Assembly (NCBI GenBank): GCA_013306675.1
Contig: JABLUY010000179.1
Span: forward strand, 16,380 to 80,379
Direction of reading: 5' to 3'
DNA length: 64,000 nucleotides
From: Thraustochytrium sp. TN22
Taxonomy: Eukaryota > Sar > Bigyra > Thraustochytrida > Thraustochytriidae
The position numbers were made by a program, and so were the translations under genes. Below are positions 32,153 through 40,361 of this stretch, piece after piece. Each line of letters begins with the position of its first letter. Position 1 is the stretch's first letter. The notes under the pieces are model-generated. The model did no database searches and was not told the DNA's origin. It saw only the letters and a list, made by a program, of their open reading frames with translations.

Positions 32153-32409
32153 GTATTTGTTAGACCATTTTGGCAGATTACCGTTGATAGTCCCGTTCAC
32201 GCGGGACGTGGCTGACCGGGGGCCAAGGAGGCAGGGAAAGGTAGAGGCAAGGCGAGCGAGCGCCGTTCGACATCAGCGAGGCTGCTCAACCCCGAGGCAA
32301 GGCGAGGCAGGGCAGGAGCTCTCGCGCCCGTGCGCCGCGGCCCTGCGGTCGCAGTGCTCGCTCGTGGGCGCGGGCGGCGCCGGAGGGCGCGCTCGCGCGC
32401 TCGTGGACT

Positions 32410-32466
<57 letters not shown>
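32410..32466. repeat. (GACGCC)9 hexanucleotide array
   Basis: About nine nearly perfect CGACGC units upstream of the channel ATG. They create an in-frame Arg-rich extension that has no ATG. Confidence 0.92.
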
Positions 32467-32467
<1 letters not shown>

Positions 32468-32544
32468 TGCCTCTCAAACGCGGCAAGCTCGTGCGAGGCG
32501 AGCGGGTGTGTGAGGGAGCGCAACGTGCAGAAGGTCGGCACAGG

Positions 32545-32606
32545 CGAGAGCGAGAGCGAGAGCGAGAGCGAGAGCGAGAGCGAGAGCGAGAGCGAGGGCG
32601 AGAGCG
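32545..32606. repeat. (GAGAGC)n hexanucleotide array
   Basis: About ten GAGAGC units, one with a G substitution, ending about 85 bp before the channel ATG, probably in the 5' UTR. Confidence 0.92.
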
Positions 32607-32689
32607 ACCAAGACACGGCCAACGCTGCATGGCCAAGCGGGGGCGCGGACAGACGACGTAGTTCTCGCCTCCGCGCAGCAAGCGGCAGC

Positions 32690-35600
32690 ATGGGCACGGA
32701 TGCGGAGCGGCGAAGAAGCGAGACGCCAGGGTCACAATGGTCGGAGACGAGCGAGACTCGCCGACTGCAGAACGCCGGAAGCGTGAGGTCGCTGGGCGTC
32801 TTCTCGCGGGAAAATCCTGTGCGCCTGGTCTGCGTGCGAATCACCAATCACAGGGTGTTTCGGGGCTTAGTGCTGGGGCTAATTTTGGCGAATTGCGTCT
32901 TCTTAGCGCTTACAGAGCCATTCCCGACGTGCTGCACAGAGAGCGAGCTGGTGGACGACGGCATCATCAAGATCGACCTGACCAACTTCACCCACAAGTG
33001 CAACATGTACAATGAGTACGTCGATGAGGCAGGCGCATCGCTCGACGGCACGTGCTGCATCAGGAGCGAGGATCTTGTGGGCGATGACTATCACAAGTGC
33101 GCATCGGTCGCGCTCAAGCAGGTGCAGGAATCCGCCGAGGTGCTTTTCAACGTCCTCTTCACAGTGGAGATGAGCATAAAAATCGTAGCGCTTGGCTTCG
33201 TCTCCAGCAAGGGTACCTATCTGCGCGACGGGTGGAACATGCTGGACTTTGTCGTGGTCTTTGTCGGCTGGCTCTCGTACGTGCCGGGCATCGCCAACCT
33301 GTCCGCGCTGCGCACCTTTCGCGTCCTGCGGCCGCTGCGCACGCTTTCGAGCATCCCGGGGATGCGCCCCATCGTGAGTGCGCTCATCTCGTGCATCCGC
33401 TCCATGGCGCACGTTCTCATGCTTTGCGCCTTCCTCTTTACGGTCTTTGGTATCATTGGCCTGCAGCTTTTCTCCGGCACGCTCACAGGGAGGTGTCACT
33501 ACGTGGACGTGACGGGCGCCGATGGGTCCGCGCTGCTCAATGCGTCCACGCTTGAGTACATGAGCATCGTCGAGAGCGACGAGGCGCCCTGCCCGCTGCC
33601 GTGCGCCGTCAACACGGACTCCGACTCCACGGCGTGGTTTGACCCTCTCGCCTGGACGCGGCCAGGCAGAGACTGCCTCAGCCTTGCCGGCGTGCAGTGC
33701 CATGCGCGCGATCCGGTGCTCGTCGTAAACCCATTCTACGCCGGCATGGATGCCTCCGGCACTGTTGACGTGAGCGTGGCGCTGCCGACCGAGATGCTCG
33801 CGGATCTTCCCGCGAGCGTGGGCGACGCGTCCAACTTCACGGCAAACGCCGCTGGAGGGGTCTTAACGCAGACCTACGCAGTCAATCGGCCAGTCGTGGA
33901 ACTCACCTCGTTTTGCATGAATACTGGCGAGAACCAGCTGGGTGACGGCTTCGCCACCTTCGACTCCATTGGCTACGCCTGGCTCACAATCCTCACATCC
34001 ATCACGCTCGAAGGCTGGACCGACGTCATGTATGGCCTGCAGGCCTCCGTCGGCCGGCCCTTTCTTATCTTCCTCTACTTCTTCTTCATGGTCTGGATGT
34101 GCTCCTTCTTCATGTTGGAGCTCACCCTCGCCGTCATTAATGAGGCCTACGAGAAGGCGAGCGAGCAGGACCAGGCGCTCATTGCCGAGGAGGAGGAGCG
34201 CAAGAGCCACGCCCAGGCTGGTGGCGGCCGACTGGTTGGCCCTGACGGTGTCGCGCACGAAGGCGCGGGGAGTCCGACGGGCGCCGCAGACAAGGCACGG
34301 CCAGGAGCGCTGGCCCATGAGGAGTCTCTGCGCCACGGCGCAAGCGCACAAGAGGGTGTGGGCCCGAACAGGCATCACGAGCTGCACCGTGACTCCACGG
34401 CTGCGACGCTCATCGCTGATGGTGCCGAGTTGGCGCCGTATGGGCCCAAGCCGATCCGGTGGCTCTTCTGGCTCGTCTACAAGTCGGACGTTTTCACGGG
34501 AATCATCACCCTTCTGATCGTCTGCAACACCATCACACTGGGCATGGAACACCACAACATGTCGAAGGCGGAGCGTGCCTTCCAGGAGGGCGCCAACTTG
34601 TTCTTCACTGTGGCCTTCACGATTGAGATGGTGCTCAAGATTATCGGCCTGGGCCCGCACCAGTACCCGAAGGACTTCTTCAACATCTTTGACTTCGTCA
34701 TCGTGATTATCTCGCTCGTGGAACTCTTTGTGGACGCCGAGGACGGCGGCTCCGGCCTGGGCGCGCTGCGCACCTTCCGCCTCATGCGCGTCTTTAAGTT
34801 GGCACGCTCATGGAAAGATCTGCGCCGCCTGCTGCACACCATCTTGCTATCCATTCTCGACGTGACCAACGCGGCCATCCTGCTGGTCATCATCATGTTC
34901 ATCTTCACGCTGCTAGGCATGCAGCTTTTCGGTGGCATGTGGACCGCGGACCACTTTTGCGAGGATCCGGAGGATTACGAGGGCTGCCTCGCTGACACGC
35001 CACGCGCCAACTTCGACACCTTCTGGTGGGGATTCGTAACCGTCTTCCAGGTTCTCACGGGCGAGAACTGGAACGAGCTCATGTACATCGGCAAGCGTGT
35101 CAACGGCGAAATCGCCTGGGTCTACTTCGTCGCGCTCAACCTTATCGGCACCTACATGGTGCTCAACCTCTTCCTTGCAATTCTGCTCGCGCGGTTTGAG
35201 GCTGACGACAAGGTCGAGGCAATCGAGGAGGCGCGCGAGGCTCAGCGCCAGGCCACCTTGCGTTTGCTTGACGTTCGCAGTCCTGCCGTGGCTCCTCTGC
35301 CCGCCAGCAGCGAGCCCGCCAATGCCGCCTCTGGCTCCGCAGCAGCAGCAGCTACGGACAAGCAGCAGCCGCAGCGCGACGAGGGCGAGGTCGCCGCCAA
35401 GGCCAACGCGGCCGGTATCCAGCGGGGCACCCCCCCCGTCGGGGGGCGCCGCATCAGCTCGCAAGACATGCGACGCACCATCGCACGTGCTGATACCATG
35501 GGCACCGAGGGCGATCCCGACCCGGACGACTTCGTGCCCAAGCCGCAAAACCCGAACAAGATGACCATGCACCCTACGGCACGGGCATTCTTCATCTTCC

Positions 35601-37786
35601 CACCTGAGATGCGCGCGCGCCAGGCTGCCTTTGAGCTGGTGAACAGCAGCAAGTTTGACAACTTCATCCTCCTACTCATCGCCATCTCGACCGCGCTATT
35701 GGCGGCCGAAGAGCCCTACGTGGCGGACTGCAAGGAGACCACGTGTCAGTCCTTCTTCCAGTTCCTCTACGTGATGGACATCACACTCAACATCTGCTTC
35801 ATCGCGGAGATGTTGCTCAAGATGTTCGCACTCGGGCTCATCATGCACAAGTACGCGTACCTGCGAAGCGGCTGGAATGTGCTGGATTTCATCATTGTCG
35901 TGGTGTCCATTCTGTCGCTGGTCATGGGCGGGGATACTGCCTTCAAGGCGCTCAAGTCGCTGCGCTCACTGCGCGCCCTGCGCCCGCTGCGCGTCATCAG
36001 CCGCAGCCCCGGCATGCGCCTCGTGGTGAATGCCATCATTGCGGCCATTCCGGCCATCGCCAACGTCTCCGTGGTCGTCCTCCTCTTTATGCTCATCTTT
36101 GCCATCATCGGCGTGCAGAACTTCGCGGGCGGCCTCAACTCCTGCAACGACCCGGATCTCCAGGGCAACGGCTTCACCATGGACCACTGCGTCGGTGAGT
36201 GGATCCCTAGCTTCGATTCTTGTGGCGTGCATCCGACGCCGGAGCTCGTCGAAGAGTGCCTGCGCAACGGGACTGACGCGAGCCTGCCGTTCCCGCGCAT
36301 CTGGGGGCCCAACGGCGGCGTGCCCAACTCATACAACTTCGACAACGTGGGCCAGGCGCTACTCCTTGTTTTCGAGGTGGTCTCCGGCGAGATGTGGCCC
36401 GACATCATGTATTCCACCATGGACATTGCCGGCCCAGATGTCCCGATGCTGGACTGGCCACACCGCCAGAACGGCTCGGTCGCCATCTGGTACATGCTGG
36501 TGACGCTCGTTTGCTCCTTCCTCATGATCAACGTCTTTGTCGGTGTCATCATCGACAACTTCAACGACATGAAAGACAAGCAGAACGGCAGCGGTCTGCT
36601 GACAGAAGACCAGAAGCTCTGGCTGGCCACCATCAAGAAGACGATGGAGGAGAAGCCCATCAAGCAGTCCGTGCCGCCCACTGGTGCAATGCGTGCCCGC
36701 GTGTGGCACCTGATCAACTCGCGCGGCTTCGAGGTTGCGATCATGGGCTTCATCCTGCTCAATACTATCGTCATGATGCTGCAGGCTGAGGGTATGTCCG
36801 AGGTCGAGGTTGCCGTGCTGGATTCCCTCAATCTCGCTTTCCTCTGCATCTTCACGGTCGAGGCGGCGCTCAAGCTCTTCGCACTGCGAAGCGAGTACTT
36901 CAAGGCGGGTTGGAACTGCTTTGACTTCTCACTCGTCATCTTTGGATTCCTGGGCCAGCTTGGCGGCCTGGGTCCCATCGCCTCGCTGCTGCGCATCTTC
37001 CGAGTCGCGCGCATGTTCCGCCTTGTGCGCACAAGCCCCGGCCTGCTGGCAATCTTCCGCACGCTCATCTATTCCATCCCGTCCATTCTCAACGTTGGCG
37101 GCATTTTCTTGCTGCTCATCCTCATCTACGCCATCCTTGGCATGAACCTCTTCGCACGCATCAAGCACGGCGACCTCCTCAACTCCGACGCCAACTTTGA
37201 GGGTTTCTTTATCTCCGTCGGCACACTCTTCCGCGTCAGCACGGGCGAGTCCTTCAACGGCATCATGCATGACTGCATGGTTCAGGAGCCATACTGCTCC
37301 GAGGAGTACGGCAATTGCGGCTACCCGGTGTTCGCGCCCATTTACTTCTGCAGCTACTATATCCTCTCTGCTTACACGCTCCTCTCCATGATCACCGCCA
37401 TCATCCTCGACCAGTTTTCCGACCAGGGCGCCGCCGCCACGGCCGCGGTACGCGAGGAACACATCGATGCCTTCAAGACCGAGTGGGCCAAGCTTGACCC
37501 GGCCGGCACGATGCTTATCCGTGAGGAGCTCCTCGTCAAGCTTGTTTCACATGTCCCCTACCCGCTCGGCGTCCAGGGAACGCCGCGCAACGTCGCCAAC
37601 GGCCTGTCCGTGCGCAAGCTTGCCAACGCGCTCATCCAGCGCCTCGATGTCCCCACCGTGCAAGGCAACGTCGCATTCAGTGAGGTGCTCACTGAGCTCA
37701 CCAGCAAGGCCATGCCGCTTGTTGATATCCCAATCACACCTCTATGCTTACTCGTATCCGCCTACCACGCGGGGGTCCCTCGGTGA
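32690..37786 (+). CDS. Four-domain voltage-gated Ca2+-type channel, 3' end disrupted
   Basis: This is a CaV/NaV-family alpha subunit of four six-helix repeats. The S4 voltage sensors are ALRTFRVLRPLRTL (near 205), GALRTFRLMRVFKLARSW (near 690), LKSLRSLRALRPLRVISR (near 1088) and LLRIFRVARMFRLVR (near 1433). The pore loops read TLEGW, TGENW, SGEMW and TGESF, giving filter residues E441, E792, E1234 and E1520. This EEEE ring is typical of Ca2+ selectivity. After the last helix comes an EF-hand-like segment (FKTEWAKLDPAGTMLIREEL). From residue 1680 the frame reads into a transposon, giving about 18 foreign residues before the stop at 37784. The normal C-terminus with an IQ motif lies beyond the insertion. 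The ATG at 32690 is chosen; the upstream open frame is only repeat. Confidence 0.93.
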   Translation: MGTDAERRRSETPGSQWSETSETRRLQNAGSVRSLGVFSRENPVRLVCVRITNHRVFRGLVLGLILANCVFLALTEPFPTCCTESELVDDGIIKIDLTNFTHKCNMYNEYVDEAGASLDGTCCIRSEDLVGDDYHKCASVALKQVQESAEVLFNVLFTVEMSIKIVALGFVSSKGTYLRDGWNMLDFVVVFVGWLSYVPGIANLSALRTFRVLRPLRTLSSIPGMRPIVSALISCIRSMAHVLMLCAFLFTVFGIIGLQLFSGTLTGRCHYVDVTGADGSALLNASTLEYMSIVESDEAPCPLPCAVNTDSDSTAWFDPLAWTRPGRDCLSLAGVQCHARDPVLVVNPFYAGMDASGTVDVSVALPTEMLADLPASVGDASNFTANAAGGVLTQTYAVNRPVVELTSFCMNTGENQLGDGFATFDSIGYAWLTILTSITLEGWTDVMYGLQASVGRPFLIFLYFFFMVWMCSFFMLELTLAVINEAYEKASEQDQALIAEEEERKSHAQAGGGRLVGPDGVAHEGAGSPTGAADKARPGALAHEESLRHGASAQEGVGPNRHHELHRDSTAATLIADGAELAPYGPKPIRWLFWLVYKSDVFTGIITLLIVCNTITLGMEHHNMSKAERAFQEGANLFFTVAFTIEMVLKIIGLGPHQYPKDFFNIFDFVIVIISLVELFVDAEDGGSGLGALRTFRLMRVFKLARSWKDLRRLLHTILLSILDVTNAAILLVIIMFIFTLLGMQLFGGMWTADHFCEDPEDYEGCLADTPRANFDTFWWGFVTVFQVLTGENWNELMYIGKRVNGEIAWVYFVALNLIGTYMVLNLFLAILLARFEADDKVEAIEEAREAQRQATLRLLDVRSPAVAPLPASSEPANAASGSAAAAATDKQQPQRDEGEVAAKANAAGIQRGTPPVGGRRISSQDMRRTIARADTMGTEGDPDPDDFVPKPQNPNKMTMHPTARAFFIFPPEMRARQAAFELVNSSKFDNFILLLIAISTALLAAEEPYVADCKETTCQSFFQFLYVMDITLNICFIAEMLLKMFALGLIMHKYAYLRSGWNVLDFIIVVVSILSLVMGGDTAFKALKSLRSLRALRPLRVISRSPGMRLVVNAIIAAIPAIANVSVVVLLFMLIFAIIGVQNFAGGLNSCNDPDLQGNGFTMDHCVGEWIPSFDSCGVHPTPELVEECLRNGTDASLPFPRIWGPNGGVPNSYNFDNVGQALLLVFEVVSGEMWPDIMYSTMDIAGPDVPMLDWPHRQNGSVAIWYMLVTLVCSFLMINVFVGVIIDNFNDMKDKQNGSGLLTEDQKLWLATIKKTMEEKPIKQSVPPTGAMRARVWHLINSRGFEVAIMGFILLNTIVMMLQAEGMSEVEVAVLDSLNLAFLCIFTVEAALKLFALRSEYFKAGWNCFDFSLVIFGFLGQLGGLGPIASLLRIFRVARMFRLVRTSPGLLAIFRTLIYSIPSILNVGGIFLLLILIYAILGMNLFARIKHGDLLNSDANFEGFFISVGTLFRVSTGESFNGIMHDCMVQEPYCSEEYGNCGYPVFAPIYFCSYYILSAYTLLSMITAIILDQFSDQGAAATAAVREEHIDAFKTEWAKLDPAGTMLIREELLVKLVSHVPYPLGVQGTPRNVANGLSVRKLANALIQRLDVPTVQGNVAFSEVLTELTSKAMPLVDIPITPLCLLVSAYHAGVPR
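37725..37728. repeat. Left target-site duplication (ATAT, possibly GATATC)
   Basis: Channel sequence GTTGATAT precedes the element, and the same ATAT resumes at 40066. Because GATATC is a palindrome next to C/G-ended inverted repeats, the duplication can be read as ATAT with CCCAATC ends or GATATC with CCAATC ends. Confidence 0.75.
37729..37740 (+). repeat. Left terminal inverted repeat of the element
   Basis: CCCAATCACACC; it pairs with 40054-40065 with mismatches at positions 8 and 11. Confidence 0.75.
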
Positions 37787-38183
37787 CGCCCGGCACAGGG
37801 GGCACTAAAGCGTATTAAGAGGGTACTTTACTCCCGATTTGCTCCAAAAAAGTGGCCTAGAGTCTGGCGAAGTTAGTTCCGCATTCGATCAAAAACGCAG
37901 CGATGGGGCCGAGCTTGAAGAGGCCCACTCGAAGCGACCCAAGGCTCCTGCCCCCTATTCATTTTGGCCGAAGGCGTGGTGGTTAGGATGAGATGAGCTC
38001 GGCAGTTCGCCCAGAGCGGCTTTGGGGGGAGCTCGCGCGCGACTTCGTCGCGGAGCGCGCTGGAGCCGCAGGCGCTGCGGCGCGCGGCTGCAGGCGGCCC
38101 TGGCGGGTGCCTTGTGCCTGCTCTCAGCTCGCACGCCCCTGCCGCAGCGCTTGGACGTGGAGTCGGGCCCGCACTGCGACATC

Positions 38184-39859
38184 ATGGCATCGGCGAGGCC
38201 TAACCACCGCGTGGAGGACGACAGCGACAGCGACAGCGACAGCGAGTTCGTGCCCCTGGACAAGCGGGACACAGGGGACGAAGACGAAGAAGGAGAGGAG
38301 CTTGGCGACGAGGATGCTCGTGCTGAGGCCGCTGCGCAGCAAGACTTCGAAGACATACTTGCGTTGGTCGACGAACCGACGCGTGGTGCGAGTGCATGTT
38401 CGAGGTCGGCCTCATTCAGCACAAGACCGTTCCGGGGCTCGCAGTCTCGCCGGATGGAGTCGCTCGCGTCCGGCTTCCAGGCGCGGAGTGCGACGCATCG
38501 TCAGTACTATGCAGCGTCGAGATCAAGACGCGCGTCGCGCCTGGAGGCGCGGTAGACGCACGTATCGTGAGCACCCAGATGAACACGTGGGGGACGAGAC
38601 TTGGTGGAAGGCCATACCTGCCGAGCACCGCGCGCAAGTCTTGCACCAAGCTGTGGTCCTCCAAATCGATCACGTGCTCTACGTTGCTGCCAGCACGAGT
38701 TCGTGTTTGTACGCCTGCCTCGTTGAAGTGCCTCCGGACGCCCGGCTCGCCATGGAGCGCGCTCTGAAACCGTGGGCGGACAAGCTCACGACATGGGCGC
38801 ACCAGAGCATCGACAGCGGGTGCGCCGCCCAAGCCACCTGCCATCTTCGGCGAGGAGGAGGGGGCGGTGCTGAGCTCGCACTTCCGGCTGTGGCGCGCCA
38901 TGCGCAAGCTTGTCGCTCTGAAGGGGCCCATGCGGCCCGTGCATGTCATCAAGTGCTTACCGCAGGAGCTATACAACGTCGCAAAGGGCGGCGTCGACGG
39001 AAGCACACAGTACGTGGAGCAGATCACCAACACGCAGTGCATGAATCTGAGCTGCGACCAGAACATCGCGTTGCGCACGTACAAGCAGCTCGTTGTCAAC
39101 GCCATCGTGGTCTACCGCTACTTACAGGCTGCGAGGAAGAGCAACCTCGAAGACAGCGACGGGCTAAAGGCCCTCCGCGACAAGGTGAACCGCTCTGAAG
39201 CGCTCAGCACTGTCTCGTTCCGCCTCACTGTCGACATGGTCCGTCACGTCTACAGGAGCAGGCAGCTCGATACGGCGCAGGTGGAGTTCAACATGCAGCC
39301 AAGCATGCCCAAGCCCACTGGGCTCACCAGGGAAGCGGCGAGGGACCTCGTGACCGCCGGTAAGCGCAAGCGAACCCCCGAGTTGCAGAAGTTCTTCAAC
39401 CACGGCCAAGCCCGCGACATCCGCCTCGATGCCGCACTGCAACATGACTCAGAGGCAGCGGGAAAGGCATCCTTCAACGCCAACAACAAGAGGATTCCCG
39501 CCAAGCGGCTCTGCGTCATCTGCGGCAAGCAAACGCACCGTCGTTGCACCATCTGCGGTGTGCCTCTGCACGTGTTCATGAGAAAGAATGAACGCACAAC
39601 CTGCTTTTCCAAGTGGCACACGCGCGTGCGCGTCGAGCCTCACGAAGGCTTCAAGAAGCGCAAGACAAACGTCAACGGAACACCTTCGCCCATTTGCCTC
39701 GATCATGTCGATTCGAGCAGCGCCAGTGCCTCGTCCGGTACCCCTACAGCGCAGAGCAGGAACGACCACGTAGCCCAAGCCAGCTACACCGACACCCCAT
39801 CAAGCCATAGTTCAAGATCCTCTCGCAGCAGCCTCAGCACGAGTCCATCGTGCCCTTGA
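38184..39859 (+). pseudogene. Transposon protein: YqaJ-like nuclease plus piggyBac-like C-terminus, frameshifted
   Basis: The conserved blocks occupy different frames. An acidic start (ATG at 38184, DSDSDSDSEF) is in frame 3. A YqaJ-like PD-(D/E)XK part with SPDG and EIKTR (38381-38570) is in frame 2. Its continuation (WWKAIPAEHRAQVLHQAVVL, to about 38820) is in frame 1. The C-terminal part (38822-39859) is in frame 2. The last part has YNVAKGGVD, like the final acidic motif of piggyBac transposases. It ends with a cross-brace Cys/His cluster (CVICG, CTICG, CF.KWH) and a Ser-rich tail. About three frame changes and no internal stops within blocks point to a recently broken gene or to sequence errors. 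An upstream ATG at 37993 in frame 1 is an alternative start. Confidence 0.65.
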
Positions 39860-40053
39860 TGCAGCCCAAGTTGGCCTCAGCATCCGCACAGGCCAGTCGG
39901 AAGTGACCAACACTTTACGCTTCCATACAAACCCAGTAGTTGAAAGTTCCAAAAATGATTAGAATCATGATAGCAACAGGTCAGTCGAGCGCAAGCAGGA
40001 GAGCCGATTTACTAGGGATAATATGGCTATCCTGATTAAACTCCGTCTAGGGC

Positions 40054-40065
40054 GATGGGATTGGG
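40054..40065 (-). repeat. Right terminal inverted repeat of the element
   Basis: On the minus strand it reads CCCAATCCCATC, matching the left end at 10 of 12 positions. Confidence 0.75.
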
Positions 40066-40069
40066 ATAT
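40066..40069. repeat. Right target-site duplication (ATAT)
   Basis: It repeats the four bases before the left end. Channel coding sequence continues directly after it. Confidence 0.75.
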
Positions 40070-40361
40070 CCCCGAGGACAACCAGCTCGTGCAGAAGCTT
40101 CTCGGTCGCAAGGAGGACAATCAGACCAAGATGTTCCGTCGCATGGGCACCTCGCGCGAGCACGTTCTCTACAATGCTGCGCAGGTCAACGCAATCATGC
40201 TGTTGCAGTCTGCCATGCGCGGCTTCATCTACCGGTCCAAGCTTGCAGACCTCATCGACCAGCAGCCCGTTTCTCCGCAGCTCGCTCAGGAGCCCGCACA
40301 GCCCGCTGAAGTCGTCAGCAGCATTGCGGACCCCGACGAGATGGACGCCGATGGGAAGTAG
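40070..40361 (+). pseudogene. Detached 3' end of the channel gene with IQ motif
   Basis: This encodes the last ~97 residues of the interrupted channel. It begins PEDNQLVQKLL, continues exactly in phase with the codons before the insertion, contains the calmodulin-type IQ motif (IMLLQSAMRGFIYRSKL), and ends at a TAG at 40359. In CaV channels this position binds calmodulin and mediates Ca2+-dependent feedback. A frame with an ATG at 40023 runs through it, but its first 14 residues come from the transposon, so independent expression is doubtful. The detachment is seen directly. Whether the other allele is intact is unknown. Confidence 0.88.

Follow-up and report, generated by a model that had tools for sequence, protein, structure and literature searches.

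A probable piggyBac-like transposon with ATAT-type target sites interrupts a voltage-gated channel gene in Thraustochytrium sp. TN22

In the thraustochytrid Thraustochytrium sp. TN22, the open reading frame (ORF) of a four-domain voltage-gated channel runs into foreign sequence before its end, and the rest of the gene resumes further downstream. This raises the question of what separates the two parts, how it came to be there and whether the gene can still yield an intact product. The locus lies in a 64,000-nucleotide stretch of contig JABLUY010000179.1 (positions 16,380 to 80,379 of the forward strand; assembly GCA_013306675.1), which we call the window and in which position 1 is the first letter. 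The insert is very probably a recently mobilised, non-autonomous DNA transposon, whose family transposase is piggyBac-like and carries a YqaJ-type block between its second and third aspartate motifs.

Boundaries, copy number and age of the insert

The limits of the insert can be read from the following features:

37725–37728, no strand: left copy of the 4-bp target duplication, ATAT (from the sequence and the flank tabulation)
37729–40065, plus strand: non-autonomous, putatively piggyBac-like element of 2337 bp, with 118 exact left ends genome-wide
37729–37742, plus strand: left terminal inverted repeat, CCCAATCACACCTC (repeat tool and end searches)
40052–40065, minus strand: right terminal inverted repeat, CCCAATCCCATCGC in the minus-strand reading (repeat tool and end searches)
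40066–40069, no strand: right copy of the target duplication, ATAT (from the sequence and the flank tabulation)

The element thus occupies exactly 37729–40065 (2,337 bp) and is flanked by ATAT at 37725–37728 and 40066–40069. It begins with CCCAATC and ends with GATTGGG, and within it the left and right ends agree at 9 of 10 and at 11 of 14 bases; the inverted arms returned by the repeat tool (37724–37738 and 40056–40070; 15 nt, 93%) also take in ATAT and one flanking base. An earlier note, made from the letters of the window, had described a transposon with exact, in-frame boundaries and inverted repeats of the form CCCAATC.CA.C at both ends, and in both respects it is correct to the base.

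The 37.9-Mb genome has 245 matches to the degenerate end pattern CCCAATCMCAYCKC as against 10 to a reversed-pattern control, and hence the pattern is not a product of chance. Exact matches to the left end number 118 and to the right end 127, with control counts of 0 and 10; 100 of the 118 and 100 of the 127 are among the matches listed. Among 49 fully read copies, the one in the window included, 33 are identical to the window copy, and the whole set holds 35 differences, or 0.03% per base. Such near-identity points to a recently active family and bears out the suggestion of the earlier note that the insertion is recent, with the caveat that the uniformity could in part reflect gap filling during assembly: one copy contains Ns and several contigs end at the element. 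A seemingly longer copy (L039) was set aside, as its extra length is mostly a run of Ns.

The interrupted channel gene

Two segments of the channel gene lie on either side of the element:

32330–37786, plus strand: four-domain voltage-gated channel ORF, truncated; native to 37728, followed by 18 foreign codons and TGA
40070–40361, plus strand: 3' end of the channel gene, separated from the rest by the element and holding an IQ-like motif (about 40188–40241)

The ORF encodes 1818 aa, of which the last 18 are translated from the element up to the TGA at 37784–37786. Upon removal of the element together with one ATAT (37729–40069), the sequence reads ...DI-PEDNQLVQ... and stays open until the TAG at 40361. 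The Ion_trans domain of Pfam is matched in four stretches of the truncated ORF (E 2.1e-232), and the last 595 residues of the joined frame match solved sodium and calcium channels, the best of them a sodium channel (E 2.8e-102). The label "calcium-type" is reasonable and comes from the filter motifs LEGW, GENW, GEMW and GESF, an E-E-E-E pore signature read by eye from the translation. Both the GPHH (E 0.00044) and the IQ (E 0.0097) matches fall under their Pfam cut-offs, for which reason we speak of the latter as IQ-like. The earlier account of a frame ending in foreign sequence at 37786, of a gapless join once 37729–40065 and one ATAT are deleted, and of a 3' end resuming at 40070 therefore stands, save that its "IQ motif" has to be softened. 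As assembled, the gene is disrupted, and its product would lose the IQ-like tail and gain 18 foreign residues, in agreement with the roughly 18 first proposed.

Derivation from longer copies

A 4127-bp relative on contig C81 (L034) matches element positions 1–650 at 98.9% and 653–2337 at 98.2%, around 1773 extra bases; a second difference, of 19 bp, breaks the YqaJ-like part of the window element. On this alignment the window element arose by deletion from a 4.1-kb element with a gene for a putative piggyBac-like transposase, of which these traces are recognizable:

38184–38378, plus strand: remnant of the N-terminal part of the transposase, with homology to the start of protein P0002
38378–38381, plus strand: scar where 1.77 kb present in the 4127-bp long copies has been deleted, and with it the first and second aspartate motifs
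38381–38767, plus strand: relic of the YqaJ-like nuclease block, with the second, 19-bp deletion near 38587
38867–39859, plus strand: relic ORF of the transposase C-terminal part, with the third aspartate motif (YNVAKGGVDG) and a Cys-rich tail

With these internal deletions, a full transposase cannot be made from the window copy, whose mobilisation must have been driven in trans. Four long copies were found, on C81 (L034), C109 (L114), C394 (L053 and L003) and C33 (L116); over 3923 bases, C109, C394 and C33 differ from C81 at 5, 6 and 35 positions, respectively. In all four, a frame break splits the coding region into two overlapping frames, which in three copies measure 998 and 363 aa, and C33 has the same layout plus one further stop in the first frame. 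The common frame break may be either a shared lesion or programmed frameshifting, which look alike here.

Affinities and architecture of the transposase

Used alone as a query, the C-terminal relic ORF found no homolog. The protein of the long copy recovers four proteins (P0004 to P0007), to which a profile search adds two fragments. P0005 is a protein of the dinoflagellate Durusdinium trenchii named for YqaJ, and P0007, of the same naming, is from the red alga Gracilariopsis chorda. The motifs [IL]DDEL, DRGYS, S[PS]D[GA]...SVE[IF]K and K[GC]G.DG occur in one order in P0004, P0005, P0006 and a frame on contig C239, while the P0007 record begins after the first two aspartate motifs and shows the YqaJ block followed by KGGVDG. 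The C239 frame (C239:11800-16800; L118:600-4238) is uninterrupted over 1213 aa and unites all of the blocks in a single polypeptide: IDDELVG, TADRGYS, a YqaJ-like block with SPDG...SVEIK, KGGVDG and a Cys-rich tail. From this order, a YqaJ-type nuclease block would be located between the second and third aspartate motifs of the transposase. No second copy of the C239 relative was seen, and a search of the diverged relatives L117 and L118 yielded no convincing terminal repeats; C239 is possibly a domesticated gene or the last intact relative. As a separate observation, the transposase relative in the P0006 record is combined with an FKBP-type isomerase domain, either by a gene-model fusion or as a real chimera.

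When a profile of the family was compared with 177,635 PDB sequences, the best match was piggyBac (6x67, E 0.0033) in two collinear stretches, namely an N-terminal one and one that aligns KGGvDG of the family with KGGVD at residues 443–447. The piggyBac residue aligned with the third aspartate motif is D447, which we take to be catalytic. A Cys-rich tail, read by eye, completes the resemblance. The guess of a piggyBac relationship in the earlier note is therefore broadly right insofar as weak collinear profile matches and target signatures go, but the Pfam piggyBac model PF13843 (DDE_Tnp_1_7) matches neither P0002–P0003, C239 and all 8 of 8 members (E up to 10) nor P0004–P0007 (E up to 1).

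Several points weigh against our reading of the family. The two stretches of 6x67 are singly insignificant (independent E 48 and 0.36), and the addition of a further sequence to the alignment weakens the match, its E rising from 0.0033 to 0.028. PF13843, while missing the family, finds four other loci in the same genome, three of them over cut-off, and profile comparison with these PF13843 proteins aligns the N-terminal region only (Prob 72-75%). YqaJ exceeds its Pfam cut-off in P0007 alone (E 2e-7), and none of the four long copies is a source element with a single open frame. As PF13843 is unmatched and each PDB stretch is by itself insignificant, we call the family piggyBac-like rather than filing it as a member.

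These results raise the alternative that the family belongs to a separate IS4/IS1380-like DDE lineage that has converged on a 4-bp TA-centred target. Besides the unmatched PF13843, this would accord with weak matches to the DDE-core model PF01609 (DDE_Tnp_1) in 4 of 8 members and in C239 (E 0.0016). We nonetheless regard it as unlikely, since piggyBac supplies the best PDB match in two collinear stretches, and the CCC ends, the 4-bp TA-centred duplication and the Cys-rich tail agree with piggyBac as well.

The PF13843 matches of the genome were also considered as the element family itself and rejected, being other loci. Three of them (L009 on C398, L010 on C16 and L011 on C76) are long open frames that exceed the cut-off with E 3e-35 to 6e-14 and are mutually divergent; they are probably host genes derived from piggyBac.

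Target sites

Flanks were read at 189 of the 245 ends, and 43 read ends were excluded as belonging to nested, truncated, longer or contig-end copies, which leaves 73 full-length copies with both sides, or 146 4-mers. All of these are TA-centred: 104 are ATAT, 29 CTAT or ATAG and 13 TTAT or ATAA, and neither TTAA nor GTAT nor ATAC occurs among the 146. Availability can be gauged from the window without the element, which contains 16 TTAA, 19 ATAT and 84 GTAT/ATAC. Taken by copy, 61 of the 73 have equal sides (47 with ATAT, 9 with CTAT or ATAG, 5 with TTAT or ATAA) and 12 have unequal ones. The family targets TA-centred sites, mainly ATAT, then CTAT/ATAG and TTAT/ATAA.

The element can further serve as its own control through one site:

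40021–40024, no strand: sole ATAT inside the element, a self-insertion hotspot (8 nested copies, both flanks at the site)

This single ATAT has received 8 nested copies, and the two TTAA of the element hold no nested copy among the 73; two further copies adjoin its CTAT sites at element positions 14 and 2299, one side each. Nested composites may, on the other hand, have moved as units, in which case the 8 nests might amount to fewer than 8 events, a point that tells against counting them as independent choices.

Unequal flanks and a possible transposition mechanism

The 12 copies with different left and right 4-mers, ten of which have ATAT on one side, are far from what divergence would give: about 0.18 changed bases are expected over all 146 4-mers at the divergence of the element. 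Two instances are informative in that the copy on C325 and the inner copy at C46 are nested in the ATAT of the element itself, so that the original target sequence is known, and each has one altered, non-ATAT side. The other six nests at this ATAT have ATAT on both sides.

According to the structural account of piggyBac, the flanking 4 nt remain as an overhang once the hairpin is opened, and TTAA flanks are not required for excision (PMC7351741). By analogy, a transposase acting in trans would nick the ends of the element, and each 3' end would attack across the flanking 4 bp to form a hairpin, whose opening would turn the flanking 4 nt into a 5' overhang. Once the ends are joined to a TA-centred [A/C/T]TAT target, the donor overhang would pair with the target and could persist as one side of the new site. 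Ligation of the overhang into a non-identical target would let one side of each daughter duplex retain the donor 4-mer, and such retention would account for the unequal flanks; where both sides are equal but other than ATAT, as in 14 copies, mismatch repair or a like donor would be needed. The unequal sides thus fit the piggyBac hairpin mechanism, the hairpin itself being inferred.

Could the unequal 4-mers instead be assembly chimeras of identical copies, and the apparent carry-over from donor to target an artefact? The transposon would stand even so. Copies identical over 2.3 kb, several contigs that end at the element and a copy with Ns make mis-joins conceivable, and misassembly is cleanly excluded only in the nested cases, which counts against leaning on the remaining ones. 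Open frames spanning the element were tried as a sign of gene continuity and rejected as too weak, since frames of at least 200 codons occur at 39% of 31 real joins as against 29% of 930 chimeric joins, and hence separate the two poorly. Against the chimeras stand the two unequal cases that lie inside another copy, with both flanks and the original ATAT known, an open frame of 567 aa across the join on C410 (with a weak match to a PA domain over the join, E 0.054), and the confinement of every variant to the same small set of 4-mers. We judge wholesale chimerism to be rather improbable, though deserving of some weight, and favor retained donor overhangs.

Is the element removed from the gene?

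If the hairpin mechanism applies, excision should be seamless and would restore the channel frame. Empty sites were searched in the one assembly for 8 insertions, the channel included, and in 0 of 8 was one found, all sites being occupied. The earlier note had gone further in proposing a precise excision of the element in some cells akin to that of ciliate internal eliminated sequences (IESs), in which case the element would be absent from the expressed genome and the channel would work normally. The exact in-frame join, the 4-bp TA-centred geometry that recalls Paramecium IESs (PMC3408717) and the presence of PF13843 genes in the genome are in line with such an idea. The lack of empty sites at all 8 of 8 insertions is contrary to it, as is the behavior of the element, which is dispersed, near-identical, high-copy and self-nesting in the manner of an active transposon. 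Neither are the copies enriched in open frames: open frames of at least 200 codons span 12 of 31 testable insertions (of the 73 copies) as against 82 of 128 similar sites in the window, this one window being the sole background. The pattern looks like ordinary insertion under selection, and programmed or somatic excision appears to us the least probable of all the readings considered.

Removal by splicing, as in introners, with a few extra residues left behind, was dismissed in the earlier note as incompatible with the reading phase. This was too strong and is wrong as stated, since 14 of 111 GT/AG pairs tested near the ends of the element restore the channel frame, each leaving extra residues; one pair in three is expected to fit the phase by chance, however, and the 14 of 111 has no control. 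The element has no flush GT-AG at its ends and no preference for genes by the above counts. Other copies interrupt long open frames on C375, where an HMG box (E 1.2e-11) is split, and on C396 and C410, and of the four copies in long frames whose orientation was compared, those on C87 and C396 are sense and those on C410 and C375 antisense. Splicing of this kind is therefore highly unlikely, and we retain a transposon insertion that disrupts the gene.

Comparison with known systems

The family resembles piggyBac (6X67/6X68) in its CCC terminal repeats, its 4-bp TA-centred duplication, the KGGVD motif recovered by the profile and the Cys-rich tail seen by eye. It differs in its targets, as piggyBac is described as TTAA-specific (PMC7351741) and TTAA here makes up 0 of 146 4-mers with ATAT dominant, in the YqaJ-like block between the second and third aspartate motifs and in going undetected by PF13843. 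The terminal motif CC[C/T]T of piggyBac elements (PMC2872659) is likewise absent, the family ending in CCCA. A precedent for the TA-centred rule is offered by Pokey, a piggyBac element of Daphnia, which uses TTAT (5.93%) and ATAA (5.09%) in addition to TTAA (PMC3849761); TTAA nevertheless accounts for 88.13% of its sites. Among the matches listed in searches of open-access papers, we found no precedent for dominant ATAT without TTAA, no ATAT-targeting piggyBac and no YqaJ-piggyBac fusion.

ISL2EU of the PHIS superfamily is likewise a DDE transposon with YqaJ, there mostly as a separate ORF and with an AT 2-bp duplication (PMC4482050); in the present family the block would lie within the transposase polypeptide, as in the single frame of C239, and the duplication is of 4 bp. 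In Paramecium, IESs show a 4-base staggered TA-centred geometry with TTAA under-represented, and domesticated piggyBac relatives cut ciliate DNA at TA-centred sites (PMC3408717). The geometry and the scarcity of TTAA are shared with these IESs and PiggyMac, whereas our element is multicopy, mobile and near-identical, with no sign of developmental excision. Of two proteins annotated only for YqaJ and compared here by protein sequence, P0005 of D. trenchii has the same motif order, and P0007 of G. chorda shows the YqaJ block and then KGGVDG, its record lacking the first two aspartate motifs.

Tentatively, and with appreciable doubt, one may envisage a distinct sister lineage of piggyBac, represented also in a dinoflagellate and a red alga, that has kept the hairpin and overhang mechanism and shifted its targets from TTAA to the ATAT type. 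A second nuclease of the YqaJ fold within the catalytic core may then open hairpins, trim ends or set the target. If this is true, variable targets would cause genomic copies to record the donor overhang, making the piggyBac mechanism readable from sequence alone, and the mixed sites would allow the overhang-transfer step to be tested on natural copies. Recent activity together with TA-centred, non-TTAA targets makes the family a possible intermediate between TTAA-specific piggyBac and the ciliate-cutting relatives, and a nuclease-type domain inside a transposase core would, on the matches and literature named above, be a new architecture. The family might also furnish a gene-delivery tool with a different target choice. 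On the host side, the locus provides one concrete young gene disruption, in a calcium-type channel.

Composite copies

The element also occurs in tandem and nested forms. Three copies lie head to tail on C79 (L032, C79:16300-26245), separated by 9-bp spacers of the form ATAT-T-ATAT. At L059, L069, L085 and L038 (on C189, C255, C349 and C111), one or two further right ends of 45 bp (ATAT and 41 bp more) come after the copies, an arrangement that resembles the outcome of tandem repetition of the right end or of the loss of an outer copy.

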